35,207 nt of DNA, from IMG/VR virus record IMGVR_UViG_3300030106_006427, positions 1-35,207 of that record. One strand, given 5' to 3'. Below, one piece after another: positions 1,910 through 18,219 of the stretch; the stretch's first letter is position 1, and the number at the start of each line of letters is the position of its first letter. A model generated the notes under the pieces. It was not told the DNA's origin. It did no database searches and was given only the letters and a program-made list of their open reading frames with translations. The stretch comes from a virus. Both the position numbers and the translations under genes were made by a program.

Positions 1910-4900
1910 CTATCCTAGCAATTTAAAGTTATGTCTGATAGATCTTGTAGAAAACCCCCACTGCTCATCGTAGTCTAGCTTAGCCATATAAGGCCTATTA
2001 ATGTGTAATTCATCATCCTTTTTAACTCCCCAGCACTTGATACTAGTGATGGTAGACGTTGGATCTAAAGCTCTTACTACCCAATAGTCCTTGCCGTTTT
2101 TGGTCTTCTTTCTAACTATTTCTCTAGGAATGAACCATGCAATCCCTAGGTCGTCGTCCCACTCTCCAAGAGCAGGAACACAATATTCTTCTAACTTTCT
2201 TTGTACATCTCTATTAACAACAATGTCAAAAGGAAATACTCCGGTTAGATCAGAAATATGTCTAATTTTTTCTTCATCGCTAAAATTACCTTGCTCCGCA
2301 AATGCTTCAATATTATTTAAGAATTTTTTCTTATTCTTAGGCCTCTCGCAGGCTACTGCGCCCCAGAAGTGCTTATCGCCACTAAATCTTTCATCTATGA
2401 GGTTATCAAGAGCGCCGCATCTACAAAGAACGTCTAGGGCCTTTTTATTTAATTTGGAATAAGATATCTCTTCATTAAATAATAATTCTTCCGCAGAATT
2501 AAAAGGTCTATTGTCTATAATCTGCTTAATTGCAGCTTCCCCGAGCCCTTTTATAGAATTGAACGGCTGGATTAAAACCTTGTCGTCTTCTCCAATCGAC
2601 CACTTAGTTGTAGAAATGTTGATATCAATCGGCTGCACTTCATATCCCATCTTTTTAACAATATTAATTGCCTGTTCCTTCCTGCCTTCCGGCTCTCTGT
2701 CTAGAAACGCAGCGACCCACTCAGAAGGATAATAATTCAATAGCCAAGCACACTGATAACTTAGCACCGAATATGAGACCGCGTGACTCTTATTGAAGCC
2801 ATAGCCGGAGAAATACTCAAAATTAGCCCATAGCTTCTCGGCACTCGTTTTATCTATGCCCTTCTCCATACAGCCTTCAACAAACTTATTTTGAATTCTA
2901 TCCTTCGCCGATGCGCCTTTCCCTGTGCCCTTCTTTGTCAATAACTTTCTCAAAGCATTCCCTTCGTCGAGGGTTACATTCTTGCCCAGCTTGTGTGCCA
3001 ATAGCGCGATTTGCTCCTGGAATATTAAGAACCCGTATGTCTCTTGGGTTACCTCTCTTAGCAATGGGTGCATATAATGGATGCTGCCAGGATTTTCTTT
3101 TGCATCGACATAAGACTTATCGACATTTGCTCCTAGCGGTCCCGGTCTGTAGATGGACGTAATCGCGGAGATGTCAATAATGTTTTTTGGCTTTGCTCTC
3201 ATACAAAACTCTTGTGCACCTTCTTGCGTGAATTGGAATACTCCGGCGAAGTTGCCTTTATGGAATATATTTTCATACACGTTTTTATCATTTAGATCTA
3301 TTACATCAGGGTGTAAATTTTTGTCGTAGTACTCCCTGATATCGTTATACGTAACCTCTTCCATGCCATGGTGTCTTTCTAAAATATGCTCGATTGCAAC
3401 CTCAATCATCCTAAGTGTGCTCAAGCCTAAGAAGTCGAACTTAATGAACCCAAGAGGCTCTAAGTGCCTAACATTCTGGCCTTCCGACCATGGTGTTTGT
3501 GTGACTCCCTTGTTTGTAATAAGAGGCATGTACTTATCTAGCTGCTCTCCTATAACGACACCTCCTGCGTGCCGACTAATCGAGCGGACTGACCCGTAAA
3601 TTGCTTCAATGTGGGTCTTGATGAATGGATATTTTTCTAGATATTTCTGCAACGTCGTAGAGAACTCCATTGTCTCCTCAAAAGTAGGAACGTACACACC
3701 AGACTTAATGCCGTGCTTTTTCTTGGCTGCTGGCGTGGCTTCTTGGATCATCTTGGACGTAACAGGGTTCACTTCAGTGAAAGGCACATTATAAAACTTT
3801 GAAACATCCTTGATAAGCGAGCGCAGTTGTAGAGTATTGTAGTTAGAGATTGGCACAACCGTGTTTGCTCCCCATTCGTCAATTAGCAAATTTGTTAGCT
3901 TCATTCGGTCGCTGACATCATAATCGATATCCGGGTAGTCAGTGGCGTCTCTTCTCATGAACCGGGAGAAAAGCAAATCATATTTGATTGGATCAATTTG
4001 TGTAATGCCCAACACGTAAGACAAAAGAGAACCAGCCGCGCTCCCTCGGCCCGGTCCCGAAAGCATGACGTCATTAGCTCGGTCAGCAATCGCTTTCATT
4101 GTTAGAAAGTATTTACTAAAGCCTCTTTCGTCAATAATCTTTATTTCCTCTTTTAGTCTGTCAACATAGTTGCCCTTCTTGTGGAGTTCCATGGATTTTA
4201 ATCCCTCTATCGCTAGCTTAGTAAGTGCTCCCGTTGCCGTGTGATCCGGTGGCACCACAAACTCCGGCAGTCTCACCGTGCTATCCGGCATAAACGACTC
4301 GATTCTTTCAAAAGCGATTTTATGCGTGTTAGTAATAGATTTCATTACAAGATCATCGTCATACTCTACTTCACACATGGAAGAATACTTCTTATAAGCT
4401 TCCCACATCTGGTCTCCGTTTTTAGGATATAGTTCCATCCCTAGATCATCCACATCGATAGGCAATTCGTCTGTCAACCACTCCGGCTTTTGTGCTCTGC
4501 CAAGAAATCCGAGTCTTTTATATAGTTCTCGATCCTTCCATGCAGTCGGAGTTGGATAGTGACTGTCCGCCGTGGATATCAATTCCATATTATACTCTTT
4601 AGAGACTTCTATAATATATTTGTTTAACTCATGTTGCTCTGGTGCAGAGAACCACTGTAGTTCGCCGTACCATCGATCTCCAAAGATTGATTGCATTCTC
4701 TCTGTCGTCTCTCTCATGGCAGCTAGAACAGCGCCTGCGCCATCATCACGATTATCCCAATAGTTACCTGCGTACACGCCACCAAGGCAAGCAGACGAAG
4801 CAATAATACCGTCATTGTGTTCCTCCAATAGTTTATAGTCAACACGCGGATATCGATAACGATTATCCCCCTCATATGATTTAGATATGAGAGAGAATAT

Positions 4901-5344
4901 GTTGTTAAGGCCCGTTTGATTTTGCGCAATTAATATAAGATGATTCTTTTTCTTAATTATATTGGCTTTCGCCTTTGAATCTCGCTCGTTCTCAATCGCC
5001 ATGTTGTCTGAGTTTTTTAGTTTCCTGGCTTCCTTCTTATCTTCTTTTGCTTTTTCATATGCTTCTCTCCAATCATCAATAGACGGTAAGAAATAGGCTT
5101 CAACACCAAAAATAGGCTTAAAATTTTTACCCTGCTCTTTCATTTTTCTGGCGTGGAGGATCTGATACGACATACCGTTGGCATTTCCGTGGTCCGTTAG
5201 AGCCAGCGCGTCACATCCGTTTTGGTAAGCAAAGTCCATGTGTTCTTGTGGATAGCCAAGGCCATCAAACGGAGAGCCCACTACACTGTGGGCGTGCAAT
5301 CCTACGAACGGGATCGATGATTTTTTTCTTTCTGTATCAGACAT
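1910..5344 (-). CDS. dnaE: DNA polymerase III alpha subunit-like, family C polymerase with intact PHP domain
   Basis: A 1144-residue replicative polymerase, near the length of bacterial DnaE (about 1160). The N-terminal PHP domain (about 11-290) keeps all expected metal ligands: H17/H19 (LHAHS), D27, H52 (LTDHGN), E82 (GVEAYF), H135 (NHLILIA), C186 (SSACLGG) and D260/H262 (TADSHY). The catalytic aspartates are D472 and D474 (YPDIDYD) and D637 (FIKFDFLGL). Other DnaE signatures are GPGRGSAAGSLLSYVLGI (430-447), SIYRPGPLG, GFLIFQEQ and GFNKSHAVSYS. A helix-hairpin-helix lies near 931-947 and an OB-like segment near 1085-1135. I saw no obvious QxxLF-type clamp-binding motif. The start has a strong AAGGAGGAT ribosome-binding site and overlaps the end of the small membrane-protein gene by 8 bp. 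By family knowledge an intact PHP domain can proofread. Confidence 0.95.
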   Translation of the reverse strand: MSDTERKKSSIPFVGLHAHSVVGSPFDGLGYPQEHMDFAYQNGCDALALTDHGNANGMSYQILHARKMKEQGKNFKPIFGVEAYFLPSIDDWREAYEKAKEDKKEARKLKNSDNMAIENERDSKAKANIIKKKNHLILIAQNQTGLNNIFSLISKSYEGDNRYRYPRVDYKLLEEHNDGIIASSACLGGVYAGNYWDNRDDGAGAVLAAMRETTERMQSIFGDRWYGELQWFSAPEQHELNKYIIEVSKEYNMELISTADSHYPTPTAWKDRELYKRLGFLGRAQKPEWLTDELPIDVDDLGMELYPKNGDQMWEAYKKYSSMCEVEYDDDLVMKSITNTHKIAFERIESFMPDSTVRLPEFVVPPDHTATGALTKLAIEGLKSMELHKKGNYVDRLKEEIKIIDERGFSKYFLTMKAIADRANDVMLSGPGRGSAAGSLLSYVLGITQIDPIKYDLLFSRFMRRDATDYPDIDYDVSDRMKLTNLLIDEWGANTVVPISNYNTLQLRSLIKDVSKFYNVPFTEVNPVTSKMIQEATPAAKKKHGIKSGVYVPTFEETMEFSTTLQKYLEKYPFIKTHIEAIYGSVRSISRHAGGVVIGEQLDKYMPLITNKGVTQTPWSEGQNVRHLEPLGFIKFDFLGLSTLRMIEVAIEHILERHHGMEEVTYNDIREYYDKNLHPDVIDLNDKNVYENIFHKGNFAGVFQFTQEGAQEFCMRAKPKNIIDISAITSIYRPGPLGANVDKSYVDAKENPGSIHYMHPLLREVTQETYGFLIFQEQIALLAHKLGKNVTLDEGNALRKLLTKKGTGKGASAKDRIQNKFVEGCMEKGIDKTSAEKLWANFEYFSGYGFNKSHAVSYSVLSYQCAWLLNYYPSEWVAAFLDREPEGRKEQAINIVKKMGYEVQPIDINISTTKWSIGEDDKVLIQPFNSIKGLGEAAIKQIIDNRPFNSAEELLFNEEISYSKLNKKALDVLCRCGALDNLIDERFSGDKHFWGAVACERPKNKKKFLNNIEAFAEQGNFSDEEKIRHISDLTGVFPFDIVVNRDVQRKLEEYCVPALGEWDDDLGIAWFIPREIVRKKTKNGKDYWVVRALDPTSTITSIKCWGVKKDDELHINRPYMAKLDYDEQWGFSTRSIRHNFKLLG

Positions 5345-5555
5345 TTACCCTATCCTCCTTAATTATTTGTTTAATTCTTATTAATGATAAAAGGACCGCC
5401 GCGACAATAAACGCTGTGTATAATACCACAAAGAATAACGCATAATCGTAAGCCAAGAAGATCGCCAAAGTAGCGGGTACAAAATGTATTTTCCCAAGAA
5501 CAAGGCAAATCAAAGCTACCTTAGTTAGAATATGTAAGCGATTCCACCATTCCAT
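5337..5555 (-). CDS. Small predicted membrane protein, unknown function
   Basis: A 72-residue protein with two hydrophobic segments, about residues 11-33 (VALICLVLGKIHFVPATLAIFL) and 38-60 (ALFFVVLYTAFIVAAVLLSL), and a charged end IRIKQIIKEDRVNV. This suggests two membrane passes. The ATG at 5555 is preceded by AGGA at good spacing. The 3' end overlaps the dnaE start by 8 bp, suggesting translational coupling; the ribosome-binding site of dnaE lies inside this gene. No family is recognised. Small phage membrane proteins can act in lysis or superinfection exclusion, but nothing here shows which. Confidence 0.6.
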   Translation of the reverse strand: MEWWNRLHILTKVALICLVLGKIHFVPATLAIFLAYDYALFFVVLYTAFIVAAVLLSLIRIKQIIKEDRVNV

Positions 5556-5582
5556 ATATTGTATCCTATTATAGAGTTATCG

Positions 5583-6452
5583 TCAATCAAAAATGCTCAA
5601 GTATCTCTCACCACGGTCACATAGAAATGTAACTACACAGCCATCGTGCTCGTTGTCCTGCATCCATCTCTCGGCTGCGAGTATGTTAGCTCCCGCGCTA
5701 ATTCCCACAAAGAGACCGTGCTCTCTCGCCAATTTTTTTGCTCTTTCAATAGCGTCTTCAGTTGCAATATCAATCGTCTCGTCGATCTCTTCGCGATCAA
5801 CAAGGTAATCGCCGCCGTCTCCGATCCCCTGTATGCCGTGAACCTTGCCCTCGGCAGGCATCACCATAATAAACTTGGGCAAAGGAGAATCCACAAACGA
5901 CTCCATAGCTCTTTTTGTACCCATTATCGTCCCGCCAGTTCCACCACCAGACACAATCGCGGCAATTTTTCCCTCTCCGCGTCTTATCAATTCTTGCTTT
6001 ATTTCCATTCCAGTGGTCCACTTGTGGCAATCGATATTGTCAGGATTGGCAAATTGGTTAGGAGAGAAATAGTTTTCATTTTCTTCTACCATTTTGTCCC
6101 TTAACTCAATCGCGCCTTTAAAGTCACTCTCTCCTACCTCTATTATCGTCGCTCCAAATAATCTTATCATTTGTTTTCTCTCCTCGCTCATATTGCAAGG
6201 CAAAATTATGATGACCTTGTAGCCCTTGACAGAGCCTAGCATAGAGAAGGAGATCCCTGTGTTGCCCGATGAAGCCTCGACAATAGTATCCCCCGGCTTT
6301 AGTTCTCCTCTCTCCTCTGCCTTCGTTAAAACATAATAAGCCATCCTATCTTTAATAGACCCGGTTGGATTATAGGTTTCAAGCTTTGCAAATAGCTTTG
6401 GAGCAATCTCTATAAGAGGAGTTTTTCCGATGTAGTTTAAAATATCACTCAT
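5583..6452 (-). CDS. Cysteine synthase (O-acetylserine sulfhydrylase family, PLP-dependent)
   Basis: A 289-residue enzyme of the CysK/CysM family (bacterial members are about 290-320). PLP lysine K34 sits in NPTGSIKDR. The substrate loop is ASSGNTG (60-66), the phosphate-binding loop SGGGTGGT (168-175), and other family marks are VHGIQGIG (204-211), VGISAGAN (249-256) and CDRGERYLS (278-286). The family makes cysteine from O-acetylserine and sulfide in the cytoplasm; some members use O-phosphoserine, thiosulfate or homocysteine, and I cannot decide the substrate. The motifs are complete, so the protein is probably active. The start overlaps the end of the upstream gene by 8 bp, so the two are probably coexpressed. 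This is an auxiliary metabolic gene. Confidence 0.9.
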   Translation of the reverse strand: MSDILNYIGKTPLIEIAPKLFAKLETYNPTGSIKDRMAYYVLTKAEERGELKPGDTIVEASSGNTGISFSMLGSVKGYKVIIILPCNMSEERKQMIRLFGATIIEVGESDFKGAIELRDKMVEENENYFSPNQFANPDNIDCHKWTTGMEIKQELIRRGEGKIAAIVSGGGTGGTIMGTKRAMESFVDSPLPKFIMVMPAEGKVHGIQGIGDGGDYLVDREEIDETIDIATEDAIERAKKLAREHGLFVGISAGANILAAERWMQDNEHDGCVVTFLCDRGERYLSIFD

Positions 6453-7314
6453 TTTCTACTCCAATTCCTTTTAATGAACGGGGATTTAATATTCTCTTAG
6501 CAGGGCGATTTATATCATCCGGCTTATTCCCCATATAGTTTTGGTATCCATCCCAACTGCTTATATTAAAGTAGTAAGGGGTCTCCTCAATCTGCTCAAG
6601 CACCAAATCATAGAATACATCACTTAAAGAGAAAAAGCGAGCAGAATATTGTTCCTCTTTAGGAAGTTCTGTTTTCCTATCTCCCCAATCTTGGTTTAGA
6701 TATCTAGCAGTGCCATTCTCTTTAACCATATCTATGAAGTACAAACACTCTTCGTAATTGAACGTAAACGGCAAATACTCGTTATCAATAACAGTTTTGC
6801 CCTGCCAAGAGAGAGAAAAATTTTTCGGACTGGAAATCGTCCTCCGATGCGCTCTTAAAACCTCCGGATCGTGGACGCCGTATGGGAAAGAAACAAAAAA
6901 CTTATTCGGCACCAACCAACTGCTGAGCCTGCCTATCATCTCGTTCGCCATCTTTGCGCCGTAAAGCGCGCTCCAAGCAAGACTATCTCTCTTATCCCTG
7001 TCGTGTGGGTGAATAGCAACATAATATATTGGTATCCTCACTCTAACCTCGTGGGAGTATGTCTCAAAGCTTCTATAGGCATACACCGGATCTTCTATGT
7101 AATCACCTAGTCGAGCTTTTATCAGAGGCATCATATCGTTATGGCAGATAACAAATATTGTCTCACACCCTGCATAACCGCAGTCTAAAACAGACCTCTC
7201 AACTGCGAGGTAGTCCTGTGCTACCGGCATCAGACAGTCATGCCAAGGCATATTAAAGTCTAATTTCTGTCCCGCAACTGGCACGATCCCAGCGAGGTGA
7301 TACCCCGGTTCCAT
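6445..7314 (-). CDS. Uncharacterised phage protein with nucleotidyltransferase-like N-terminus
   Basis: The frame extends to a TTG at 7317, but ATG at 7314 overlaps the upstream stop (TGATG) and is the better start, giving 289 residues. The N-terminus HLAGIVPVAGQKLDF, then a conserved-looking CLMPV...YLAVERSVLDC and GCETIFVICHNDMMPLI, resembles the start of sugar-nucleotide transferases: a beta strand, a loop replacing the usual GxGxRL, then a strand ending at a predicted nucleotide pocket. Later come RIPIYYVAIHPHDRDKRDSLAWSAL and a region rich in Trp and Tyr. I recall similar proteins in T4-like marine phages, without a known role. Transferase activity is a hypothesis only. It sits between an unknown gene and cysteine synthase, with overlaps on both sides. 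Confidence 0.7.
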   Translation of the reverse strand: MEPGYHLAGIVPVAGQKLDFNMPWHDCLMPVAQDYLAVERSVLDCGYAGCETIFVICHNDMMPLIKARLGDYIEDPVYAYRSFETYSHEVRVRIPIYYVAIHPHDRDKRDSLAWSALYGAKMANEMIGRLSSWLVPNKFFVSFPYGVHDPEVLRAHRRTISSPKNFSLSWQGKTVIDNEYLPFTFNYEECLYFIDMVKENGTARYLNQDWGDRKTELPKEEQYSARFFSLSDVFYDLVLEQIEETPYYFNISSWDGYQNYMGNKPDDINRPAKRILNPRSLKGIGVENE

Positions 7315-8117
7315 CAAAGCACCTCATTATCAAAAGTTATGTTTCCAAACTTGACAAACTCTTTTGTCTTTTGAGGGTGGACCTCTCTTTTAATAAAATC
7401 TAACTTTATCGGTCTATACCTGGCCACAGTCGGCTTGTTTCTATAAAAACCATTTTTTGGCCCCTTTATATTATTCTGCTTTAGTATCTTCTCTAATCGA
7501 AATCTAGTCATTGTGTCCGAAAAATCAAACTTTTTAAGTTGTTTGTCGCTTAGAAAAGATTGCGCTATTACAAGATTTCGAGGCTTTTTTCTAATAATAG
7601 TCCTTTTAGCCAGGACAGATTCCTCGTCATATAATTCAAGAAAATGCACATCTTTATTTATGTTAGATGAGAACCAGTCGTACACAATGTTTGTATCGGT
7701 TCTCTGCCTTATTTCAAACGGGAGTCCTGATACAAGGTTATCATCAAAAATTCTTAAGCTTTCATAGTCTATCTTTATTTTAGTGGTATCCGCAACTATT
7801 ACTCTTAAACTATTATTCTCAGGCTCAATTCTAATCGCCTGGACCTTTCGGTTAATGGGCGCGTTACCGCTTAAACACATATCGAACAAAAGTTGATCCA
7901 TTAAAGTTTTCTTATTTGCTATCATTACATCGTGGTTAAGGGCTCGAAGCGTCTCTTTGTCTTTAAAAAGCTCAAACTGGAAGGTGTCCTGCAACCCGTT
8001 TACGATAAGCTTGCAGTCATTTATTTTTGCATACACCAAAGATGCTAGGCTATTACCTATCACGACCTCTTTCCAGCGATACCTGTGGTTGTCTAATTCA
8101 ACACCCAATTGTTTCAC
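7314..8117 (-). CDS. Uncharacterised phage protein
   Basis: A 267-residue protein starting with GTG at 8117, within the last 20 bp of the transglycosylase gene; its TGA shares a base with the next ATG. The N-terminus RWKEVVIGNSLASLVYA resembles the first strand-loop-helix of a Rossmann-type nucleotide-binding fold (GxSLAS), followed by KLIVNG. The C-terminal half is basic (RKKPRNLVIAQSFL, RYRPIKLDFIKREV). No catalytic signature is visible. I recall similar proteins in marine T4-like phages. Overlaps on both sides suggest cotranslation with the nucleotidyltransferase-like protein and perhaps a shared pathway. No function is assigned. Confidence 0.65.
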   Translation of the reverse strand: MKQLGVELDNHRYRWKEVVIGNSLASLVYAKINDCKLIVNGLQDTFQFELFKDKETLRALNHDVMIANKKTLMDQLLFDMCLSGNAPINRKVQAIRIEPENNSLRVIVADTTKIKIDYESLRIFDDNLVSGLPFEIRQRTDTNIVYDWFSSNINKDVHFLELYDEESVLAKRTIIRKKPRNLVIAQSFLSDKQLKKFDFSDTMTRFRLEKILKQNNIKGPKNGFYRNKPTVARYRPIKLDFIKREVHPQKTKEFVKFGNITFDNEVL

Positions 8118-8691: not shown

Positions 8692-8693
8692 TT

Positions 8694-8966
8694 TTATTCA
8701 CTCGTTACAGCAAGGACATAGTTTTCTAGAACCATGTTGAGTTCGTCGTCTCCGATTGGAACTGTCTGCAACATAGCGCTCTCGAAAATAATCTCATCAC
8801 CCTCAGAAACATTAATATTGCAATCGTTGGCTATGGATTTCACAATTCCAATTCCATATCTCTCCGGAGGCTTGACGCCTTCAGGCAAAAGAACCATAGA
8901 TTGTTCTTGCTCCTCTTCCTCGCCGAGATCTACTACAATCATTCTATTTACTGGTTTATAGCTCAC
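8694..8966 (-). CDS. GroES-like co-chaperonin (functional analogue of T4 gp31)
   Basis: A 90-residue protein with the GroES pattern: PVNRMIVVDLGEEEEQEQ near the start, a mobile-loop region with VLLPEG (26-31), RYGIGIVKSIA, a SEGDEIIFE turn, and the ending MVLENYVLAV. Its length matches GroES (about 97) and phage co-chaperonins (T4 gp31 is 111). By family knowledge such proteins cap host GroEL and often widen its chamber so the capsid protein can fold. No GroEL gene is in the window, so it should act with the host chaperonin. The ATG has a good GGAGGA ribosome-binding site, and the gene follows the ribonucleotide reductase after 9 nt. Confidence 0.8.
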   Translation of the reverse strand: MSYKPVNRMIVVDLGEEEEQEQSMVLLPEGVKPPERYGIGIVKSIANDCNINVSEGDEIIFESAMLQTVPIGDDELNMVLENYVLAVTSE

Positions 8967-8975
8967 AGATTCCTC

Positions 8976-11393
8976 CTATCCACACTTAGCATAACCACAC
9001 GATGTGCATGTAACACATCCCTCAACATATATTAAGTCCTCAGAACCGCATTCAGTACATTTTTTATCAGAGGCCTTGCTGCCGTCTTGAATATATTTCT
9101 TTAGCACTCTCGCTGTAACCTTTGAAAAACTAAACATATCACTGTCTCTATCTTTATTTAACTGTTCGACGACATATTGTACACCGGATCCATGCCTCAA
9201 GGCAAGAGAAATCATTCTGGTAAAAACAGAGTGGTTTGGATTATCAAACACTTTTACCACGTTTTTAATAATAACCTCACCGCCATTTTCTCCAAATTTC
9301 AAGTCATAGATACTATTGGTGCTTTTTCTTGGATGCTTTAATATTGTACCATGAGTATATTTCTTTGGTATTTCAACAAAAGTAGAAAGACCTCCCATAA
9401 TCTCATATGGTTTTCCGTCCATTAGACCTACCAAAATAGTCCACTCTTCCCCCTGGATGGTCGGCCTGTGTATCTCGCATTCAAGCTCTATAGGTCTTTT
9501 TGGCGAGTTGTTCTGTGGGAAAGGCTCTTGTGATTTCTCACTAGAGTCCTCTGATAACAAAACACCCGTTCTTGAGCCGTCTACATAAACAGTAACTCCT
9601 TTCAATCCCTTCCGCCACGCGTCAAAATATAGCTCTCCGACCACCTCAGAAGGGGTTCCCTTCGGCAAATTAATAGTAGAACTAATCGAGTGGTCGATGT
9701 GCCTTTGGATAGCTGCTTGAATCTCAATTCGCCTCATCCAATCGATCTCGTGACTTTCAGTAAAAAAGTTCGGTAGGTCGGCTCCTTCATGGCTGTCTAG
9801 ATACTGCCGTACATTGTGATGATAAACTTTAAATTCTTTCCACCTATCGCCAAGATCATCTATAAAGTCAGCATCGGTTTTTTCGCTGTGGTCAAGCTTT
9901 CTTCTCCTCACATAGGAGTTTCTAAAGACCGGCTCTAAACCTGAGCTTGTTTGGCTCATTATGGAAACAGAGCCGGTTGGCGCATTTGTAAGGATAGAAA
10001 TATTTCTTCTTCCATGTTTTTCAATTCTTTCTCGTAGCGCCTTTGGTAGAGATTTTATAAAGGCGTTGTCTTTCTCAGTCTCCCAAGAGAACGCCGGGAA
10101 AGCGCCCCGCTCAATTGCAAGCTCTACGCTCTCTTCATACGAAGAGGTTTTCAAGGTCTTATAAATTTTATCAATAACTGCCAGAGACTCGTCAGAGTCG
10201 TAAGCCAGATTGAGGCATGCCAAAACATCAGCTAGCCCATGAGTTCCAAGACCTGTTCTTCTTCCATTTGCGCAAGTTTCATAAAGCTTTTTCCAAAGCT
10301 CTTTCTCGTCGGGCATATCCGCAACCGAGCGAATATTCTCTAGCTTTTCTAGTTCTAGTTCCACCAAATCATCAGAAAGGCGCATCGACGCCGCAACTAT
10401 TTGTGAGAATTTTTTAAAATTAAATCTCGCGTTTTCTGTGAACGGGTCAGTAACAAAATTCTTAAGATTAATAGAAATCAATCTACAGCTATCATAAGCA
10501 GATAAGGGTAGTTCCGCACAAGGATTGACGCATTCCGTCTTAAATTGCTCGTACTCATTCGCAGGGAGATATTTCAAAATATTATCCCACATGAGAAGTC
10601 CCGGCTCCGCTGTCTTGGTAGCCGAATCTACCACTCGCTCCCACAATTCAGTGGCGTTAATCTCTTTGGTTACAGTTGGTTCTTCGGAGTCTATAGGAAA
10701 CTTTAATGTGAAAGTTTCGTTGTTCTCCACAGCCTTCATGAACTCATCGCTTATCTTGACAGAAACGTTGGCACCAGTAACCTTTGTCAAGTCGTGCTTC
10801 ATTGTAACAAATTGTTCTATATCGGGGTGCCTAATATCCATGCTAAGCATGAGAGCACCACGCCTACCATTTTGACCTATCATTCGACACACATAAGAGT
10901 AAAGATCCGCAAAACTCCAGGCACCGCTAGTCGTTCCAGCCGAGTTGTTAACAGAGGCGTTTTCGGGGCGTAAATGAGATAAATCAAGACCGACACCGCA
11001 CCTTCTCTTAAAGAGGTTAGCTAGGTCTTTTCCAGAGTCCATGATGGAAGATATATTATCTCCGGGAGGGCCAACAACTACACAATTTGATAAAGAAACA
11101 TTAACGTGATTGTTTCCGATTCCCATCATTGGGGACCCCTGGGGCACAACATAGTCGAAGTTTTTCAAAATGTCAAAGATTTGCTCCTCCGACATTGTTC
11201 GCAAACCATTAAACTTCTTTTCTACTCTAGCAAATTCTCTTGCTAGTCTTCTATGCATGTCTTCGGGAGTTTTTTCTAATAAATTGCCCTCTTTATCCTT
11301 TAGGCAATACTTGGTCATCCAGACATTAGTTGCCAATTCATCATTGCCAAAGTAATTTAGCGTCTCTTTCTCTACTTCTTCTCTATTGTGCAT
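8976..11393 (-). CDS. nrdJ: Class II (adenosylcobalamin-dependent) ribonucleoside reductase
   Basis: An 805-residue enzyme that reduces ribonucleotides to deoxyribonucleotides. The active-site cysteines are C104 (SLSNCVVVG), the thiyl-radical Cys C292 in NPCAELPL (290-297) and C303 (DSCRLISINL). RRCGVGLDLSHLRP (130-143) and GRRGALMLSMDIRHPDIE are typical of class II NrdJ, and LTNAPTGSVSIMSQTSSGLEP is the substrate-binding finger region. The last 30 residues form a zinc-ribbon-like tail with CTECG and CTSCGYAKCG, which in this class carries the shuttle cysteines. No NrdB partner is needed; the enzyme uses vitamin B12 coenzyme and works with or without oxygen. The start is set by AAGGAA 8 nt upstream and lies 1 nt after the helicase stop, so it is cotranscribed with replication genes. 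Confidence 0.95.
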   Translation of the reverse strand: MHNREEVEKETLNYFGNDELATNVWMTKYCLKDKEGNLLEKTPEDMHRRLAREFARVEKKFNGLRTMSEEQIFDILKNFDYVVPQGSPMMGIGNNHVNVSLSNCVVVGPPGDNISSIMDSGKDLANLFKRRCGVGLDLSHLRPENASVNNSAGTTSGAWSFADLYSYVCRMIGQNGRRGALMLSMDIRHPDIEQFVTMKHDLTKVTGANVSVKISDEFMKAVENNETFTLKFPIDSEEPTVTKEINATELWERVVDSATKTAEPGLLMWDNILKYLPANEYEQFKTECVNPCAELPLSAYDSCRLISINLKNFVTDPFTENARFNFKKFSQIVAASMRLSDDLVELELEKLENIRSVADMPDEKELWKKLYETCANGRRTGLGTHGLADVLACLNLAYDSDESLAVIDKIYKTLKTSSYEESVELAIERGAFPAFSWETEKDNAFIKSLPKALRERIEKHGRRNISILTNAPTGSVSIMSQTSSGLEPVFRNSYVRRRKLDHSEKTDADFIDDLGDRWKEFKVYHHNVRQYLDSHEGADLPNFFTESHEIDWMRRIEIQAAIQRHIDHSISSTINLPKGTPSEVVGELYFDAWRKGLKGVTVYVDGSRTGVLLSEDSSEKSQEPFPQNNSPKRPIELECEIHRPTIQGEEWTILVGLMDGKPYEIMGGLSTFVEIPKKYTHGTILKHPRKSTNSIYDLKFGENGGEVIIKNVVKVFDNPNHSVFTRMISLALRHGSGVQYVVEQLNKDRDSDMFSFSKVTARVLKKYIQDGSKASDKKCTECGSEDLIYVEGCVTCTSCGYAKCG

Positions 11394-11394
11394 A

Positions 11395-12750
11395 TTATTT
11401 GTTCCTTTCTTCCCACTGGGTATAAACTTTCTTCATCTCTCTTTGTTGTCGTTTTACTTCGCTTACTTCCATCTCATCAATTGTTTCGTCTGTAGGCTCC
11501 AGAACCTCTATTTTAACGTTTGAGGTGTCAAAAAGCAAAGGGAACACCATTCCATCCGGCCCATTGCGATTTTTCGCAACATACATTTTTCCAGTGTTTG
11601 CTGTCTTATCTTCCTTTGTTCTTGAAATTGTACAAATAAAATCAGATACGAAGCACTTGTTAAATGCCTCCGAGATAGCTTCCATTGTAATCACTGCTTG
11701 ATTCAACCCGGTCCTGTTAGTTTGAGATGCTGTCCAAATAGGACACTCGTACTCTTTTGCGATACCTCGCAACTCTTCATAAATAGACTCTAGTTGGTTC
11801 CTTTTCTCTTTATAATTTGTAGTTGGTTTGAGAATGTCAGCGTAATCTATGATGATCAGATCGACTTTTTTCTCTCTTTTCAATAACTTATCTAAAGAAG
11901 CCCTAATGGTATTTGTTGATGCAGATTTTGTTGGATATTCTTTAATAAAGAGTTCTCCCTTTACTTCTAGGCAGGTTTCTTTAATTTTGTCCTTAAACGC
12001 ATTTAATCCCGAAAGGGGGTATCTGGTGATGCAGCTATCGTACCTTTGTCCTACAACTTCTTCAGAAAGTTCTAGAGTGTAGTGTGCCACGGTCTTGCCC
12101 TGCCTTACAGCCGTAGCACCTAAGTGAACAAGAGCGTGAGACTTACCCGCTCCCGTGGGTGCTACAACCACCCCAAGTTCCCCTTTGCCAAGGCCGCCTT
12201 TTGTTATCTTATCTATTCGATCCCACCCTGTAGAGACAGGATTCCTAGCCTTGAATATATAACGCAACTCAAAATCTTTCTTATAGTCATGGCCATGATC
12301 ATTGTCAACCCCCAGTTTGACCGCTTCATCAATCACCTTTTTGATTTCTTCAAAAGAGCAGTTGTCCAGCAGTCCCACCGAAATCATCATCGCCTCTTTT
12401 AGCTTTTGCTTCTTACAAAAGTCTAAGGATGTGTCCTTTACATATTGGCTGTCTTCTATGTCCTTCGTTCGAATCCGGGTAAAGAAATCTCTAACTTGCT
12501 TTTTTATAAGATCCGGCTCGTCCTCCATCTCGGTTCTCAGGATAGAATCAAGAATCTCATCGCTGGGATGTACGTTATATTTTTCTCTATAATCGAATAT
12601 GAGCCCGGAGAAGACTTGCAGATACTTTGATTCGAAGAACTTAATATCTAGGACTTCTTGCATCTGCTCAGAGAACGGCCTGTCCTCCAACATTAGTTGG
12701 ACAAGTTTCTCCTGAAAGTTTTTTCCATACAAAGAAAAGTCTTGTTGCAA
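11395..12750 (-). CDS. Replicative DNA helicase, DnaB / T4 gp41 type
   Basis: A 451-residue hexameric helicase. The start is TTG at 12750 with a very strong GGAGG just upstream. Residues 1-150 form an alpha-helical N-terminal domain, followed by a RecA-type motor: Walker A APTGAGKS (197-204), the LELSEE motif (226-231), Walker B LIIIDYADIL (298-307) and IWTASQTNR (338-346), close to the ALSQLNR motif of DnaB. SRTKEDKTANTGKMYVAKNR fits the arginine-finger and DNA-loop region. It unwinds duplex DNA at the replication fork. A sigma70-like promoter precedes it, overlapping the end of the exonuclease gene. No separate primase is visible in the window. Confidence 0.9.
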   Translation of the reverse strand: MQQDFSLYGKNFQEKLVQLMLEDRPFSEQMQEVLDIKFFESKYLQVFSGLIFDYREKYNVHPSDEILDSILRTEMEDEPDLIKKQVRDFFTRIRTKDIEDSQYVKDTSLDFCKKQKLKEAMMISVGLLDNCSFEEIKKVIDEAVKLGVDNDHGHDYKKDFELRYIFKARNPVSTGWDRIDKITKGGLGKGELGVVVAPTGAGKSHALVHLGATAVRQGKTVAHYTLELSEEVVGQRYDSCITRYPLSGLNAFKDKIKETCLEVKGELFIKEYPTKSASTNTIRASLDKLLKREKKVDLIIIDYADILKPTTNYKEKRNQLESIYEELRGIAKEYECPIWTASQTNRTGLNQAVITMEAISEAFNKCFVSDFICTISRTKEDKTANTGKMYVAKNRNGPDGMVFPLLFDTSNVKIEVLEPTDETIDEMEVSEVKRQQREMKKVYTQWEERNK

Positions 12751-12772
12751 CTTCCCCTCCTAATTTTGTATC

Positions 12773-12801
12773 AATGTACTATAATAAGAGCTATTTGTCA
12801 A
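12773..12801 (-). promoter_or_regulatory. Candidate sigma70-type promoter before helicase gene
   Basis: The coding strand has TTGACA (12796-12801), a perfect -35 box, a 17-nt spacer, then TACATT (12773-12778). Transcription would begin near 12766, about 16 nt before the TTG start. The -35 box lies across the end of the exonuclease gene. It could serve the helicase, nrdJ, groES-like and following genes with host polymerase early in infection. Confidence 0.45.
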
Positions 12802-13768
12802 TCAGTATCTTGTTGAATCGCTGGAAAAGATCCATCCAGCTAGTTTCACCGAATCCGTCTTGACTCATCATCTTGATGATCTCCGTTTTATTAAAAAACA
12901 AGTCATCACTCGCTATCATTGCTCGTATCTTCATCTTCGTTGTCGCGCTTATATTGGGGGAACTTAGCTGCATCAACTTGTAGTTTTGCCTAATCAATGC
13001 AGATTCACTCAATATGCTTCCATACGCTTTCACGCCGTCAATGTTGTCCCTACAATGCTCGAAGATATCACTAATCATGTATTCTTCTTCGTCTTCAAGG
13101 AAAGGAAACCTCTTTTTGACCGTAGCTAGGCCAACGCCTTTGGCTCCGGGCAAATTATCGTTTTTATCCCCTGCTATCGCCCTAGCTAGTGCGAAGTTAT
13201 TTGGATGAATTCCATATTGATCAACTACTCGGTTAACATTAAGCACCTGCTCTTGTGTGGGTCGAAATAGTACCGTCTCGTTGTCCAATATCTGGATAAA
13301 GTCCTTATCGCTAGAAACTATCACTTTTTGCCATCCAGCGTACTCATCTAACTTAGTTGCAAAAGCTATAAGATCGTCTGCCTCGATGTGCTCAAACATT
13401 AGCTGAACCACAGGCATATAGCTTAAGTACTCTACAAGGCGCGTCTGTTGCCATACCTTATTTTGTACCTCTTCATTCTCGGTTAAATTCCTTACCTGTC
13501 TGTTCAGTCGGATAGGATTTCGACCTTCTTTGTAGTTTTTATTAATACTCTTGCGGCGCTTAGATCCTCCGGCTCCGTCCCAGCAAATGACGATTCTATC
13601 AGGCCGGATCTCTCTCGCAAGCTTTTGTAGTATCTTTAAAAATCCTTTCATGCCACCAATAGGATCTCCATTTGTGGACAAAGAAGGATCTACAATATAA
13701 GCTCGATAATAAGAATTAAGCGCGTCTACAAATAGAACTCTTCTAGTTTTTATCTTGGATTTTTTCAA
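12791..13768 (-). CDS. 5'-3' exonuclease / flap endonuclease (T4 RNase H-like)
   Basis: A 325-residue PIN-domain nuclease. Acidic metal ligands are in place: D15 (FVDALNSYYRAY), D64 (CWDGAGGSKRRK), E129, D131 and D132 (HIEADDLIA), and D154/D156 (VSSDKDF). The helix-hairpin-helix DNA-binding motif GDKNDNLPGAKGVG covers 200-213. Such enzymes remove RNA primers and 5' flaps from lagging strands. This fills the 5'-nuclease activity missing from the short PolA-type polymerase nearby. The start overlaps the preceding small gene by 26 bp. Confidence 0.9.
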   Translation of the reverse strand: MKKSKIKTRRVLFVDALNSYYRAYIVDPSLSTNGDPIGGMKGFLKILQKLAREIRPDRIVICWDGAGGSKRRKSINKNYKEGRNPIRLNRQVRNLTENEEVQNKVWQQTRLVEYLSYMPVVQLMFEHIEADDLIAFATKLDEYAGWQKVIVSSDKDFIQILDNETVLFRPTQEQVLNVNRVVDQYGIHPNNFALARAIAGDKNDNLPGAKGVGLATVKKRFPFLEDEEEYMISDIFEHCRDNIDGVKAYGSILSESALIRQNYKLMQLSSPNISATTKMKIRAMIASDDLFFNKTEIIKMMSQDGFGETSWMDLFQRFNKILIDK

Positions 13769-14078: not shown

Positions 14079-14096
14079 ACGTTTAACCTCTAAGCA

Positions 14097-14104
14097 TAAA
14101 TAGT
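14097..14104 (-). promoter_or_regulatory. Candidate phage promoter motif ACTATTTA before the exonuclease operon
   Basis: The coding strand reads TATACTATTTATGCTTAGAG, 26 nt before the ATG, in the gap after uvsX. It is the only ACTATTTA site in the window attached to a replication-region gene; the others precede virion genes. Confidence 0.4.
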
Positions 14105-14130
14105 ATAGAGTTCAATTAGAAGCTTACTTA

Positions 14131-15252
14131 CTAAGCGTCCACGTCATAAAAGTCCGAGGCGTCTCCCGTCCTATTGTGAAATTTAAAAATGATCTCTTCC
14201 TCCATTATCTCTAGAATGCGAGTTTTGAACTTTTCATTTTTCAACTTCTCGCTCCAGCTAGAGCCTTGAAACTTTTCCTCAGTACCGTCTTTGTAGGCTA
14301 TGGAATGCCAAGGGCCTCTTGTATTAAAGTGTTCTGAAGACTTAATCGCCTCAAGCCAACTCTCCTCGTCCTGCACTCTAACCTCATCTCCCCAAAGGAT
14401 CTTGAAGGTGCATTCCCTGGCTTGTGTTCCGAACTTGGACTTTTCTAGCTTTGCTTTAACCTCGGATCCCACCCTGAAGCCGTTTTCATCTTTAACAAAA
14501 GACGCCTTGGACTTGCGTCCAGTCAGCCATATGCGCAAGTCATATGCATAATGCATAGCTTTCCCGCCAGGTGTGAAGTAAGGAGTCGTCATAGCCTCTG
14601 CCACATTGGATGTAATATTAGTTTTAAGCTGGTTTAGTACAAGCAGCGTGGCTTCGGCGTTAGCAAGAGGTATCGTTAGCTTTGCCATGCCCTTGGATAG
14701 AATCCTCGGCTTAACTGCCATAGAAGAAAGAGGGTTAAAGTCTCCCTCGATATCAGTAACCGCAGGAGTCAATGCTAGACTATCCCAAATAAACAGCATC
14801 TTATTTTGATTGCCGCCCAAAAGCTCTTCAATAGTCTCTAGAACAAACTCTACGCTCTCAGCCTGGATGTATAATACCTTATCTAGGTCACAGCCAGCTT
14901 TTGCCAAGAAATCTGGATCGATCGCAGATTCCGAATCAAAATAAATCACATCGATATCTTGTTTTTGTGCGTTCGCAGCAATTTGTGCAGCGACATAAGA
15001 CTTACCAGTGGATTCTAATCCAGCAATCTCAGTTATCTTACCAACCGGAATGCCAGCGAGCTTCCCCTTACAAATAATTGAGTCCAGCCACCGTGAACCA
15101 GTCGGGATCCATCCCTTTACCTGGGTCGGATTATCTTGCGTTAGATTATAGGCAAGGTCATAGCCTGCCTTTCTATTAATAATCTTCCGCATTTCGTCCA
15201 TGCTAAGTCTTCCTAAGTTCGAATTTGTTTCTTTTTTGCTACGTCTTGCCAT
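14131..15252 (-). CDS. uvsX: UvsX/RecA-type strand-exchange recombinase
   Basis: A 373-residue RecA-fold protein. Walker A is GLESTGKS (78-85), a catalytic-Glu region follows in YFDSESAID, Walker B is KMLFIWDSLA (151-160), and VLNQLKTNI matches the loop carrying the conserved Gln at the end of a core strand. Disordered DNA-binding loops follow DIEGDFNPLSS and near TTPYFTPGGKAMHYAYDLRIWL. Length and pattern are nearer phage UvsX (T4: 391) than bacterial RecA. It forms filaments on single-stranded DNA and drives recombination-dependent replication and repair with SSB. The start has AGGA upstream. The gene follows ssb, separated by an exceptional hairpin. Confidence 0.9.
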   Translation of the reverse strand: MARRSKKETNSNLGRLSMDEMRKIINRKAGYDLAYNLTQDNPTQVKGWIPTGSRWLDSIICKGKLAGIPVGKITEIAGLESTGKSYVAAQIAANAQKQDIDVIYFDSESAIDPDFLAKAGCDLDKVLYIQAESVEFVLETIEELLGGNQNKMLFIWDSLALTPAVTDIEGDFNPLSSMAVKPRILSKGMAKLTIPLANAEATLLVLNQLKTNITSNVAEAMTTPYFTPGGKAMHYAYDLRIWLTGRKSKASFVKDENGFRVGSEVKAKLEKSKFGTQARECTFKILWGDEVRVQDEESWLEAIKSSEHFNTRGPWHSIAYKDGTEEKFQGSSWSEKLKNEKFKTRILEIMEEEIIFKFHNRTGDASDFYDVDA

Positions 15253-15277
15253 TATAAAATCCTAATTATAGTAAATT

Positions 15278-15328
15278 GGCAACGCGAGGTGTAGCGCGGA
15301 GGGGGCCGACAAAACACCTCGCGTTGCC
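15278..15328 (-). other. Long GC-rich hairpin between ssb and uvsX
   Basis: GGCAACGCGAGGTGT (15278-15292) is perfectly complementary to ACACCTCGCGTTGCC (15314-15328): a 15-bp stem with a 21-nt, very GC-rich loop. On the coding strand it is followed by AATTTACTATAATT, so no clear U run. It could be a terminator or attenuator, an RNase processing or mRNA-stabilising element, or a DNA-level element such as an origin hairpin. Confidence 0.9.
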
Positions 15329-15336
15329 GGGAGCGC

Positions 15337-16089
15337 TTAAGAGTTAACCAACTCATTAAAAGCGCTGTCGACAGAGTTGTCTTCGCTAGTAAGAGTAGCC
15401 TCTGTTGTGCTATCTCCCTCGCTTGCAGACACCTCTTCATCGATGCTAGTCATGTAATCATGCAACATCTTACCAACATCGTCCGAACTCGGACGCTCAA
15501 ATAGCGTCGTCACATCGGGAATCGCATCTAGAAGACGCGAAGCCTCGTCACTATCCTCAACCAGGGGCGAAGTACGTCGGCGAGGCGTAATGCTCGTCTG
15601 GGGGAACTGCGCTCCTGCTGGCTTTCCGTAGGTAATTACCAAATCGGTGCCATTATCAACATCAGTGATGTCGCCGTAATCAGGATTGAGGACTAAATTC
15701 AACAACTCTTGGTACGCCATTCTACCAAAACCCCAAATTCGCACTCCCTGCTCTTCTTCCCCACGTACAATCACGGGAGCAAAAAATCGCTGTCGTGCGC
15801 TAAGGTTCTTTGCCATTTTAACGCTATCAGGGTCGCCCTGCTTATACAAAGTGCGAACAAAATCATCAAGCGGACACTCATCTCCAAAGTTCTTTTTGGG
15901 ACTCAAGAAAGGCGTATTGTTTCCAAGATTGTAATGGAACCAAAACTCTTTAAATGGATCTCCGTCAGCGGTCGGAACAATACGAATTGTTTGCTCTCCA
16001 TCCTTCGGACGCCAAAAGTTATTCTTTTCAGCACCCTTGCGATTCAAAGATGCCAGCTTCTCTTTCATTTTAGACATATCAATACCCAT
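15337..16089 (-). CDS. Single-stranded DNA-binding protein, T4 gp32-like
   Basis: A 250-residue protein. The basic start (MSKMKEKLASLNRKGAEKNNFW) is followed by an OB-type core (QTIRIVPTADGDPFKEFWFHY, RQRFFAPVIVRGEEEQGVRIWGF, GTDLVITYGKPAG) and a long acidic, Ser/Thr-rich tail from about 200 onward (SIDEEVSASEGDS), as gp32-type SSBs use to contact other replication proteins. Unlike T4 gp32, only one cysteine is present, so the zinc site is apparently absent. It coats single-stranded DNA at the fork and cooperates with UvsX next door. The ATG at 16089 has AAGGAG and its own sigma70-like promoter, fitting a highly expressed early gene. A leader hairpin may allow self-regulation. Confidence 0.85.
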   Translation of the reverse strand: MGIDMSKMKEKLASLNRKGAEKNNFWRPKDGEQTIRIVPTADGDPFKEFWFHYNLGNNTPFLSPKKNFGDECPLDDFVRTLYKQGDPDSVKMAKNLSARQRFFAPVIVRGEEEQGVRIWGFGRMAYQELLNLVLNPDYGDITDVDNGTDLVITYGKPAGAQFPQTSITPRRRTSPLVEDSDEASRLLDAIPDVTTLFERPSSDDVGKMLHDYMTSIDEEVSASEGDSTTEATLTSEDNSVDSAFNELVNS

Positions 16090-16120
16090 GATAAACTCCT
16101 TTTAATCAACGGGATAGAGT

Positions 16121-16144
16121 ATGGTTAGCAAATTTTCCAACCAT
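16121..16144 (-). other. Inverted repeat in the ssb mRNA leader
   Basis: ATGGTT (16121-16126) pairs with AACCAT (16139-16144) across 12 nt. It falls within the expected 60-70 nt leader between the promoter and the ribosome-binding site. In T4 the gp32 mRNA leader carries structure used for autogenous repression; a similar role here is only a suggestion. Confidence 0.35.
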
Positions 16145-16159
16145 CTCGATTATGGATAT

Positions 16160-16188
16160 ACTATACTCTAGCAAAAATCATTTGTAAA
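16160..16188 (-). promoter_or_regulatory. Sigma70-type promoter for ssb
   Basis: The coding strand has TTTACA (16183-16188), a spacer of exactly 17 nt, and TATAGT (16160-16165). Each box differs from consensus by one base. It lies in the 100-bp gap before ssb and would give a leader of about 65 nt. This suggests host-polymerase (early) expression. Confidence 0.65.
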
Positions 16189-16189
16189 G

Positions 16190-17035
16190 CTATAAATCAA
16201 TTTTTTGGCCCTGGATATAGGAAGCGTGGAGGACGCAGTAGGCGTAATCCTGTTCATATTCAGTGGGATAGACCGCGAATGAAACTCGTAACTTTTCTTC
16301 ACTTTTTTCTTTTACTAAGGAAGTTAATTTACGCAACAATGTTCCATCCGTCTTTAATCGTTCGTTATTGATAGCATAGTAAAAAGTCATCTGCCTAGGA
16401 TGCTCAATATCAGTAAACGGCTTCATTTCTCCCGTGTTAACGTCAACAAGGCCAATAGAAGAGATTCTACACACGTCTAGCGGGCTTGTCGATGTATCTA
16501 TTACTGCTTCCGTATTGTCACAAACGTTGAGCATGTGGATGGTGGAAACAAGAAGGCGATTAATATTTTCATGATATCCAACAACAGGCACCTCGCCGAT
16601 CGCCTCTTCTATTTTAGAATTTTCAACAATGTATAATCTCTCTAGCATGGCAGATCTCGCATACTGCTGTAATACATTAAAGACTAGGTTATGTTGCCTC
16701 TCTTTAACTTCTGGCAATAAGGAAGTGTCCGGCTTGATATAAAGGACGTAGGTTGGATGTGCCTTAAGGCGCTCCAGTATACGCAAAGACGCGCCGGAAA
16801 TATCCCCTGAGCCTCCGATTACAAACAAGACCGGCCCACTTATCTTTTCAAAAAAAGCCTTTTTTAATCTAGTTTTAGATTCGTATTCTTCATGTGTCTT
16901 TTGGGGAGTTATATAAAGATAATTGTCCTCATTGCTTTTTTTAGAATTTACCTTATAAATATCGTATTGCGGATATTGTGAGAACTCTTCAGCAATTGCA
17001 CACCCCGCGTCACCTAATCCAATAATAGTTTCCAT
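16190..17035 (-). CDS. Divergent tubulin/FtsZ-like protein
   Basis: A 281-residue protein. It opens with IIGLGDAGCAIAEEF (4-18), like the first nucleotide-binding loop of FtsZ (GVGGGGxN). Residues 68-85, PVLFVIGGSGDISGASL, sit where tubulins carry the GGGTGTG signature loop. Then follow a strand with VLYIKPDTSLLPEV, a segment like the FtsZ helix-strand LQQYARSAMLERLYIVENS (122-140) with a candidate guanine-contacting Asn139, YHENINRLLVSTIHML (154-169), and DTSTSPLDVCR (180-190) near the expected catalytic T7 loop, which is degenerate. The order matches the tubulin fold, but the glycine loop is altered and the usual C-terminal polymer-contact region is short. It may bind a nucleotide without filament-driven hydrolysis. 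ATG overlaps the polA stop (TAATG). I recall relatives in marine myoviruses, without a known role. Confidence 0.6.
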   Translation of the reverse strand: METIIGLGDAGCAIAEEFSQYPQYDIYKVNSKKSNEDNYLYITPQKTHEEYESKTRLKKAFFEKISGPVLFVIGGSGDISGASLRILERLKAHPTYVLYIKPDTSLLPEVKERQHNLVFNVLQQYARSAMLERLYIVENSKIEEAIGEVPVVGYHENINRLLVSTIHMLNVCDNTEAVIDTSTSPLDVCRISSIGLVDVNTGEMKPFTDIEHPRQMTFYYAINNERLKTDGTLLRKLTSLVKEKSEEKLRVSFAVYPTEYEQDYAYCVLHASYIQGQKIDL

Positions 17036-18219
17036 TATAACCTCTTAGTCTTCATGGAGCCGTAGTTGTTGCCTACACTCATATTTATTTTAAATCTTGC
17101 CAGATCAGTCTCCGAGAATACTTCGACAATCTCCGAAAGCATTGGTCTGTCCTCCACGCTAAAATCTATAACCAGAGAGTCGTGGACTGAAAATGCCACG
17201 TAAGACTTTCTTCCTTTTAGCATCTTCGAAACCTTTATCATGCAGCGTAAAAATAGATCACTAGTAGTGCTTTGCACGATATAATTAAATGCTCTTCTTT
17301 CATCTACCTCTATATCTCGATCGAATGGAGTTAGTACCCTTTCGCCATCGAAATACTTGTCTGTTATCTCCTTTCTACGAAAAACTTGCTCTAGTTTTTC
17401 GTTTTTAGCCAGGGGATTGTAGAGCCACGCAAAAACCTTCTTCTTTATGTCTTCTCTCGATTCTGTAGAAAGAAATACGTCTTTAGCTATCCACTCATGT
17501 ATATCTTGCTGCGGCTGCTCCACCCCTGAGAGTGCGAGGATGGTTCTTAGCTCTGCGGCGTTGAAGTCTAGTTCAACAAATAGGTCGTTATTTGGCTTTA
17601 TTAAAGATCTAAAATCCTTGTCAAGCGTCAGTATAGGGAAAGAGTTTCTTTTTGTAGTAAGCCTGCCGGTTCTCGTACCAGCGATATCGTATTCAATATT
17701 TGGGGATAGCAGATTTACCTTTTTAAGAAAAGCACGAGTTTTGGGTATGGCAAAAATATCTTTCAATCCATTAATATCGATATTTAGCCTTCTATATCGT
17801 ATATCATGTATCACTTCAGATAAGCCAAGTAAAAAATCATAATTCTTTGGTCTTTCATATGTATCAAAAACATATTGAGAGATTTGATTCTTTATATCAC
17901 AATATTCCATGAGAAAGCGATCTTGTACCAAATCGAAAAAGCATAGCTCGTTCATATCAATAAGAGATATCTCAAAAGAACGGCGAAAAGAGAGTAGTTT
18001 CTTGTTTATGTTGTCCCACTTCTCTTTTAAATGCGGAGGGCACGCGTCATCCAAAGAACAGCCGATACAATACAGCGATGCACACTCTAGATCTCCAGGA
18101 ACATACGGTACGTAATTCCAGGTCTTTGTAAGCCCCCGTGGTACGTTCTCAAAGTCTAAATTCCCATCAGTGTATATCGCCACACATTCGTTTTTGTCAT
18201 CAAGCGTTTGAAACAACAT
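17035..18219 (-). CDS. Family A DNA polymerase, palm/fingers domain only
   Basis: A 394-residue PolA-type polymerase, much shorter than E. coli Pol I (928) or T7 gp5 (704). Motif A is LDFNAAELR (217-225; D218, E223). The fingers O-helix keeps R255, K259, F263 and Y267 at exact family spacing (REDIKKKVFAWLYN). ERRAFNYIVQSTTSDL (307-322) and motif C VHDSLV (345-350; D347) follow. TGRLTTKRNSFP (184-195) is the upstream conserved region. No 3'-5' or 5'-3' exonuclease domain is visible; the N-terminal 120 residues are unlike either and hold C46, C51, C54 and C60. Catalytic residues are intact, so activity is likely. The ATG directly follows the upstream stop, and the gene is coupled to the FtsZ-like gene. 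Together with DnaE in this window it makes two different polymerase families. Confidence 0.88.
   Translation of the reverse strand: MLFQTLDDKNECVAIYTDGNLDFENVPRGLTKTWNYVPYVPGDLECASLYCIGCSLDDACPPHLKEKWDNINKKLLSFRRSFEISLIDMNELCFFDLVQDRFLMEYCDIKNQISQYVFDTYERPKNYDFLLGLSEVIHDIRYRRLNIDINGLKDIFAIPKTRAFLKKVNLLSPNIEYDIAGTRTGRLTTKRNSFPILTLDKDFRSLIKPNNDLFVELDFNAAELRTILALSGVEQPQQDIHEWIAKDVFLSTESREDIKKKVFAWLYNPLAKNEKLEQVFRRKEITDKYFDGERVLTPFDRDIEVDERRAFNYIVQSTTSDLFLRCMIKVSKMLKGRKSYVAFSVHDSLVIDFSVEDRPMLSEIVEVFSETDLARFKINMSVGNNYGSMKTKRL

Follow-up and report, generated by a model that had tools for sequence, protein, structure and literature searches.

The window analyzed here comprises bases 1-35207 of the 49,934-base IMG/VR record IMGVR_UViG_3300030106_006427. 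The window and the rest of the record were found to code for tail, capsid, portal, and terminase proteins of the T4 type (PHROG and Pfam matches). The capsid, portal, terminase, and sheath are related to those of phage RM378, as matched from the syntenic relative G007, in line with a Far-T4-like myovirus. Two DNA polymerase genes, dnaE and polA, are located in the window:

1910-5344, minus strand: DnaE-type family C DNA polymerase of 1144 amino acids (aa), with PHP, Pol3 alpha, finger, and HhH domains (Pfam)
17035-18219, minus strand: divPolA1, a family A polymerase domain of 394 aa, apparently without a working 3'-5' exonuclease domain

The term divPolA1 denotes a divergent phage PolA that accompanies a "regular" DNA polymerase (DNAP), which may belong to family A, B, or C (Yutin et al., 2024, PMC11348598). 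The phage is Far-T4-like and falls into the divPolA1 group; its two polymerases are co-inherited, with catalytic residues conserved in both. Their identities are well supported by the sequence comparisons below, from which their functions are proposed. The initial annotation had described a complete DnaE and an exonuclease-less PolA, and this description holds: both frames are intact and carry Pfam domains scoring above cut-off.

The DnaE Polymerase

The PHP, Pol3 alpha, finger, and HhH domains follow each other in this order in an open dnaE frame, each above the Pfam cut-off, and the best PDB match was the bacterial Pol III alpha subunit 2hpi (E 2.7e-93). The window sequence was aligned to 80 relatives (n = 81). 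The three catalytic Asp residues were invariant (81/81), and so were ten PHP residues aligned by eye to the metal site of the Taq enzyme, apart from one gap at the start of a locus. In the DnaE1 group of family C polymerases, an intact PHP metal site goes together with a clamp-binding motif, an OB domain, and a C-terminal domain. The C-terminus of the phage enzyme has an OB-like tail by eye, without a Pfam domain match, and no conserved Q-type clamp motif was seen by eye.

An intact PHP site has been tied to proofreading activity in some DnaE enzymes, and extensive substitutions at this site have been described for alpha, beta, and gamma Proteobacteria (PMC3919608). No RNase_T-type (epsilon) exonuclease was found in 11 large records (0/11), though 10 of 14 control genomes gave a signal. 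With the metal site of its PHP domain intact and no epsilon exonuclease detected as a separate gene, DnaE would most likely proofread by means of this domain.

At least 596 confirmed DnaE relatives were found in IMG/VR, and the 80 that were kept had 65-94% identity. In the annotated phage collection the relatives showed 28-31% identity among the 40 matches listed of 1350. The DnaE clade is thus represented by hundreds of IMG/VR contigs and has no close relative among the annotated-phage matches listed.

The PolA Polymerase

The polA frame is open and matched PF00476 with 61 bits (cut-off 34.3). IMG/VR yielded 120 PolA relatives, of which 80 were kept; the alignment used here (n = 65) consists of the window sequence and 64 sequences retained of 83 once near-copies had been removed. 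The catalytic Asp residues D218 and D347, the steric-gate Glu E223, the O-helix residues R255, K259, and Y267, and the His of motif C were all invariant (65/65), and the O-helix F was F in 62/65. The corresponding motif of Pol I is HDE, with a Glu following the second catalytic Asp. In PolA this position was Ser in 54 sequences, including the window, and Glu in 11. The initial annotation had all catalytic residues retained in the two enzymes, which is correct for the catalytic Asp of both and needs refinement for this Glu. Neither polymerase looks inactive, since the catalytic residues are conserved.

A first AlphaFold model of PolA, made from six sequences, was poor (pLDDT 63.9) and was replaced by an AlphaFold2 model from the 65-member alignment (pLDDT 91.9, pTM 0.90). 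A Foldseek search with this model found Pol I large fragments (best E 7.9e-13), and VIA-align superimposed it on Bst Pol I with a Z of 25.3 over residues 1-390 (349 aligned, root-mean-square deviation 4.0). The Bst large-fragment chains have 580 residues, about 190 more than PolA, and the model has only some 60 residues ahead of its thumb-like helices. From this we infer that the exonuclease domain of PolA is reduced to a remnant. The first exonuclease motif, the only one located, reads QTL by eye compared to DTE in Pol I. Published divPolA1 traits are conserved catalytic residues in the palm, as seen here, a 3'-5' exonuclease inactivated by replacement of three catalytic acids, a truncated thumb, and replication genes located downstream (PMC11348598).

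Conservation and Co-inheritance of the Pair

The record counts given here rest on contigs chosen for their length. A single-sequence search returned seven PolA loci. Two of these records carry DnaE, and the remaining five are fragments of 13-22 kb that end 5.5-9.7 kb past PolA; where both genes could be measured (23 records) they lie 11.5-19.5 kb apart. The small PolA was present in 15 of 19 large records, a set picked mainly for DnaE. A second set of 28 records, 14 of which overlap with the 19, had DnaE in 24/28, PolA in 27/28, and PolB in 0/28, and the PolA of these 27 records was a single frame of 391-416 aa without a second PolA. Among 33 distinct large IMG/VR records, both genes were found in 25, PolA only in four, and DnaE only in four. 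In these eight one-gene records the contigs stop before or close to the position of the other gene: 3.3-11.1 kb is left upstream of DnaE in the DnaE-only records and 1.8-12.2 kb downstream of PolA in the PolA-only records. Record G038, with 12.16 kb left, is the sole one-gene record not strictly explained by the contig end.

In three records (G8, G12, and G14) the final 60 bases are found again close to the beginning, so that these probably represent complete genomes; each carries exactly this pair of DnaE and PolA. No PolB (PF00136) was found in the 35 distinct records searched. The absence of PolB from the window, as initially annotated, was confirmed and extends to the whole 49,934-base record. 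The pair is stable and fixed within the virus group. DnaE is therefore not a recent fragment that related phages lack, a possibility that the initial annotation had raised.

A phylogeny of both polymerases had also been suggested there. In eight genomes the DnaE, PolA, and DnaB trees agreed in one topology with all five internal splits in common, and the 5' nuclease tree differed from it by one split. Pairwise identities of DnaE and PolA were correlated (0.96). The mean identity over 28 pairs was 0.70 for DnaE and 0.48 for PolA, which makes DnaE the slower-evolving protein. Only among the core replication genes is co-inheritance established.

Between the window and its near relatives, synonymous differences were 0.77-0.87 and nonsynonymous differences 0.03-0.18; the synonymous sites are saturated, and dN/dS was for that reason not computable. 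Both dnaE and polA are under strong purifying selection. Together with the homology scores this excludes a chance origin of the two frames.

The Replication Cassette and Neighboring Genes

The genes located between dnaE and polA include the following:

6445-7317, minus strand: conserved protein upstream of dnaE, in 8/8 genomes; no Pfam match, PDB profile match at chance level (E 0.08)
7314-8117, minus strand: second conserved protein of this upstream pair, in 8/8 genomes; no Pfam match, no PDB match
8694-8966, minus strand: GroES-like co-chaperonin, which marks the "regular DNAP" neighborhood (phrog_3188; PF00166)
8976-11393, minus strand: ribonucleotide reductase large subunit (phrog_84, 1.6e-118)
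11395-12750, minus strand: DnaB-like replicative helicase (phrog_19, 7.1e-75; PF03796)
12791-13768, minus strand: 5'-3' nuclease (flap/primer nuclease) of 325 aa, a relative of the N-terminal domain of Pol I (PF02739, 93 bits)
14131-15252, minus strand: UvsX/RecA-like recombinase (phrog_97, 2.1e-51; PF00154)
15337-16089, minus strand: gp32-like single-strand DNA-binding protein, SSB (phrog_1192, 6.4e-23; PF08804, 45 bits)
16190-17035, minus strand: conserved protein overlapping the end of polA, in 8/8 genomes compared

The best PDB match of the 5' nuclease was the N-terminal domain of Taq Pol I (E 2.6e-18), and T4 RNase H was matched weakly (7.5e-5). A promoter scan near polA gave 15 sites compared to 12.3 in shuffled sequences, which is about equal.

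The initial annotation had placed PolA among tail, FtsZ-like, and ssb genes. The surroundings are as described, and it is the FtsZ-like label that lacks support. The protein in question (P0003, 16190-17035) has a G-rich N-terminal motif that looks tubulin/FtsZ-like by eye, and it had no Pfam match to E 0.05 and no PDB profile match to E 1.

DnaE had been regarded as a unit of its own. The dnaE gene is rather the final gene of a tightly packed same-strand run (ribonucleotide reductase, GroES, the two conserved open reading frames, a PALP enzyme, DnaE) and is not clearly separate. The two conserved genes at 6445-8117 overlap each other and directly precede dnaE in three of eight genomes (G7, G12, and G17); in the window, the PALP gene and a short open reading frame intervene. 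A role of this pair as clamp, clamp loader, or exonuclease was considered and is unsupported by the Pfam and PDB profile searches. The PALP-family pyridoxal-phosphate enzyme at 5583-6452 (205.9 bits), between the pair and dnaE, is possibly a metabolic gene. The reductase that follows dnaB has 805 aa in the window and 621 aa (63286-65151) in G007, a syntenic relative of 163 kb. The latter matches the reductase of RM378 and not that of the window, and the reductase therefore seems to have been swapped in place.

Outside the window, the large terminase subunit of the record (L003:8028-9609) is apparently split into two overlapping frames of 414 and 145 aa. In G007 the terminase is a single protein of 526 aa to which both frames match, so either a frameshift or an assembly error is present. 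With respect to the host, Bacteroidetes have been linked with one Far-T4-like genome (PMC7198788). A GTDB scan gave two relatives, one of them within the chromosome of a WOR-3 metagenome-assembled genome, and is no guide to the host. On that chromosome-length contig (L264) the upstream gene, PolA, the FtsZ-like gene, SSB, and UvsX are found in the same order, as a provirus or as a misassembly.

Possible Roles of the Two Polymerases

The reading that we regard as probable is that DnaE acts as a self-proofreading replicase and that PolA, together with the 5' nuclease, serves as a Pol I split in two that processes Okazaki fragments and gaps. DnaE would copy the DNA at the fork and proofread with its own PHP domain. 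The 5' nuclease gene lies 3.3 kb from polA within one cassette, and the 394-aa PolA and this nuclease would be a DNA polymerase I in two pieces: as the nuclease has its best match in the Taq Pol I N-terminal domain, the phage may hold both useful halves of Pol I, each as a cassette gene of its own. The nuclease would remove RNA primers and flaps, and PolA would fill short gaps on the lagging strand or in recombination or repair intermediates. We propose that PolA needs no proofreading because it would add short patches only, and that it would serve alongside any replicase, whether of family A, B, or C, in the swappable regular slot. A replicase combined with a split Pol I is the most economical reading, given that DnaE is complete and PHP-intact and PolA is apparently proofreading-free. 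The fixed pairing with DnaE indicates that the small PolA does a job of which the replicase is incapable. If the split Pol I is real, lagging-strand maturation in these phages would be independent of the host.

Several observations weigh against this assignment. A source of processivity for DnaE was not found: the PF00712 clamp was absent from the 11 records (0/11) whereas controls gave a signal. The T4-type clamp PF02916 was also absent (0/11), but this proves little because no control genome gave a signal. A clamp loader was not found either, so the search for clamp and loader suggested with the initial annotation came back empty on both counts. In the eight genomes the UvsX, SSB, MCP, portal, and sheath trees depart from the common DnaE, PolA, and DnaB tree, which means that parts of the genomes were reassorted or are poorly resolved. 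The polA gene adjoins the upstream tail-side gene (-1 to 22 nucleotides in seven of eight genomes, 117 in one), and a gap of 58-369 nucleotides precedes ssb; polA may for this reason be expressed with late rather than with replication genes. Lastly, the replication-like context is that of divPolA1 and not that of the regular DNAP (PMC11348598), and the location of divPolA1 rather than DnaE in the replication cassette favors the opposite assignment of roles.

In that opposite assignment, divPolA1 would serve as main replicase together with its cassette partners (SSB, recombinase, 5' nuclease, and DnaB), and DnaE would have an accessory part in repair, in translesion synthesis, or at a special stage. 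It would account for the position of PolA in a conserved replication cassette as the constant partner, and for regular DNAPs being found amid diverse genes and belonging to differing families in relatives (PMC11348598). However, PolA apparently has no working proofreading domain and is about 190 residues short of a Pol I large fragment, whereas DnaE is the better conserved enzyme, complete and with an intact PHP site, and we consider such a distribution of roles unlikely. Firmicutes have two essential polymerases, and an asymmetric fork could be imagined by analogy, with DnaE copying one strand and PolA copying or extending much of the other. Both enzymes are fixed and active-looking, as this would demand, but PolA apparently lacks proofreading and no processivity factor was detected for it, and the idea is doubtful. 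We are just as hesitant about a minimal fork machine, in which a clamp-free, self-proofreading DnaE is combined with a Klenow-like PolA and a trans-acting 5' nuclease, PolA doing substantial lagging-strand synthesis and tolerating a replicase of any family.

That PolA is a primase or an RNA polymerase rather than a DNA polymerase is very unlikely. Co-option of family A enzymes into RNA polymerases is on record, and a primase or RNA polymerase role was considered in print for a different family, divPolA2 (PMC11348598). The invariant steric-gate Glu of PolA (65/65) and the DnaG-like primase orthologue encoded by four full-length relatives (G7, G8, G12, and G14) both argue against it. The initial annotation had left the choice between divided labor and a replacement in progress. 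Polymerase swapping is common among tailed phages, and the regular DNAP belongs to family A, B, or C across the divPolA1 phages (PMC11348598), as could be expected if one polymerase were displacing the other. Both genes were nevertheless present wherever both positions were covered, their trees agree, both are under purifying selection, and neither shows decay; an ongoing replacement is accordingly highly improbable, and divided labor stands as the best reading.

Comparison With Known Systems

Compared to bacterial DnaE (Taq Pol III alpha, 2hpi), the phage enzyme has the PHP, Pol3, finger, and HhH domains and the catalytic residues in common, but it is very divergent and a C-terminal tau-binding domain was not seen. 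PolA shares the polymerase fold of bacterial Pol I (Bst, Taq) over residues 1-390 (Z 24-25) at a structural-alignment identity of 14-21%. The phage differs in using two separate genes and, apparently, in having no 3'-5' exonuclease.

The Far-T4 isolate RM378, a Rhodothermus phage, has terminase, portal, capsid, and sheath as well as a separate 5' nuclease in common with G007, with 1e-71 as the best match. It was rejected as a carrier of the same pair: searches up to E 1 for DnaE and up to E 10 for the small PolA found nothing in it, and its 522-aa polymerase has family B motifs by eye.

The divPolA1 set of Yutin et al. comprises 14 phages (PMC11348598). In the literature, as far as available to us, the pairing of DnaE with a small PolA was not found reported beyond that work, and the term divPolA1 was found only there and in its preprint. 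The closest system is immuto_3-5A (PMC11348598), a phage that infects Flavobacterium. The PolA profile of the window family matched the divPolA1 of this phage (E 9.2e-18), whereas its regular 777-aa PolA remained unmatched to E 10; the reverse phmmer search gave 7.6e-10. The gene order tail, PolA, SSB, RecA, 5' nuclease, DnaB, ribonucleotide reductase is identical in the two, and the 3'-5' exonuclease, lost in the small PolA of immuto_3-5A, seems to be lost in that of the window too. They differ in length (394 aa in the window, 441 aa in immuto_3-5A) and in motif C (HDS and YDA, respectively). The regular DNAP of immuto_3-5A is the 777-aa PolA beside GroES/GroEL, whereas that of the window is DnaE, with GroES 3.4 kb from dnaE; in G007, GroEL is found 3.8 kb after dnaE. 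Based on the divPolA1 profile match, the shared cassette order, and DnaE as the regular DNAP, the window is a further case of the polymerase pair already published, its regular slot being taken by DnaE. The group provides a natural experiment on the reasons for keeping two polymerases in one phage, as divPolA1 and the nuclease are constant and the replicase slot is filled by family A, B, or C.

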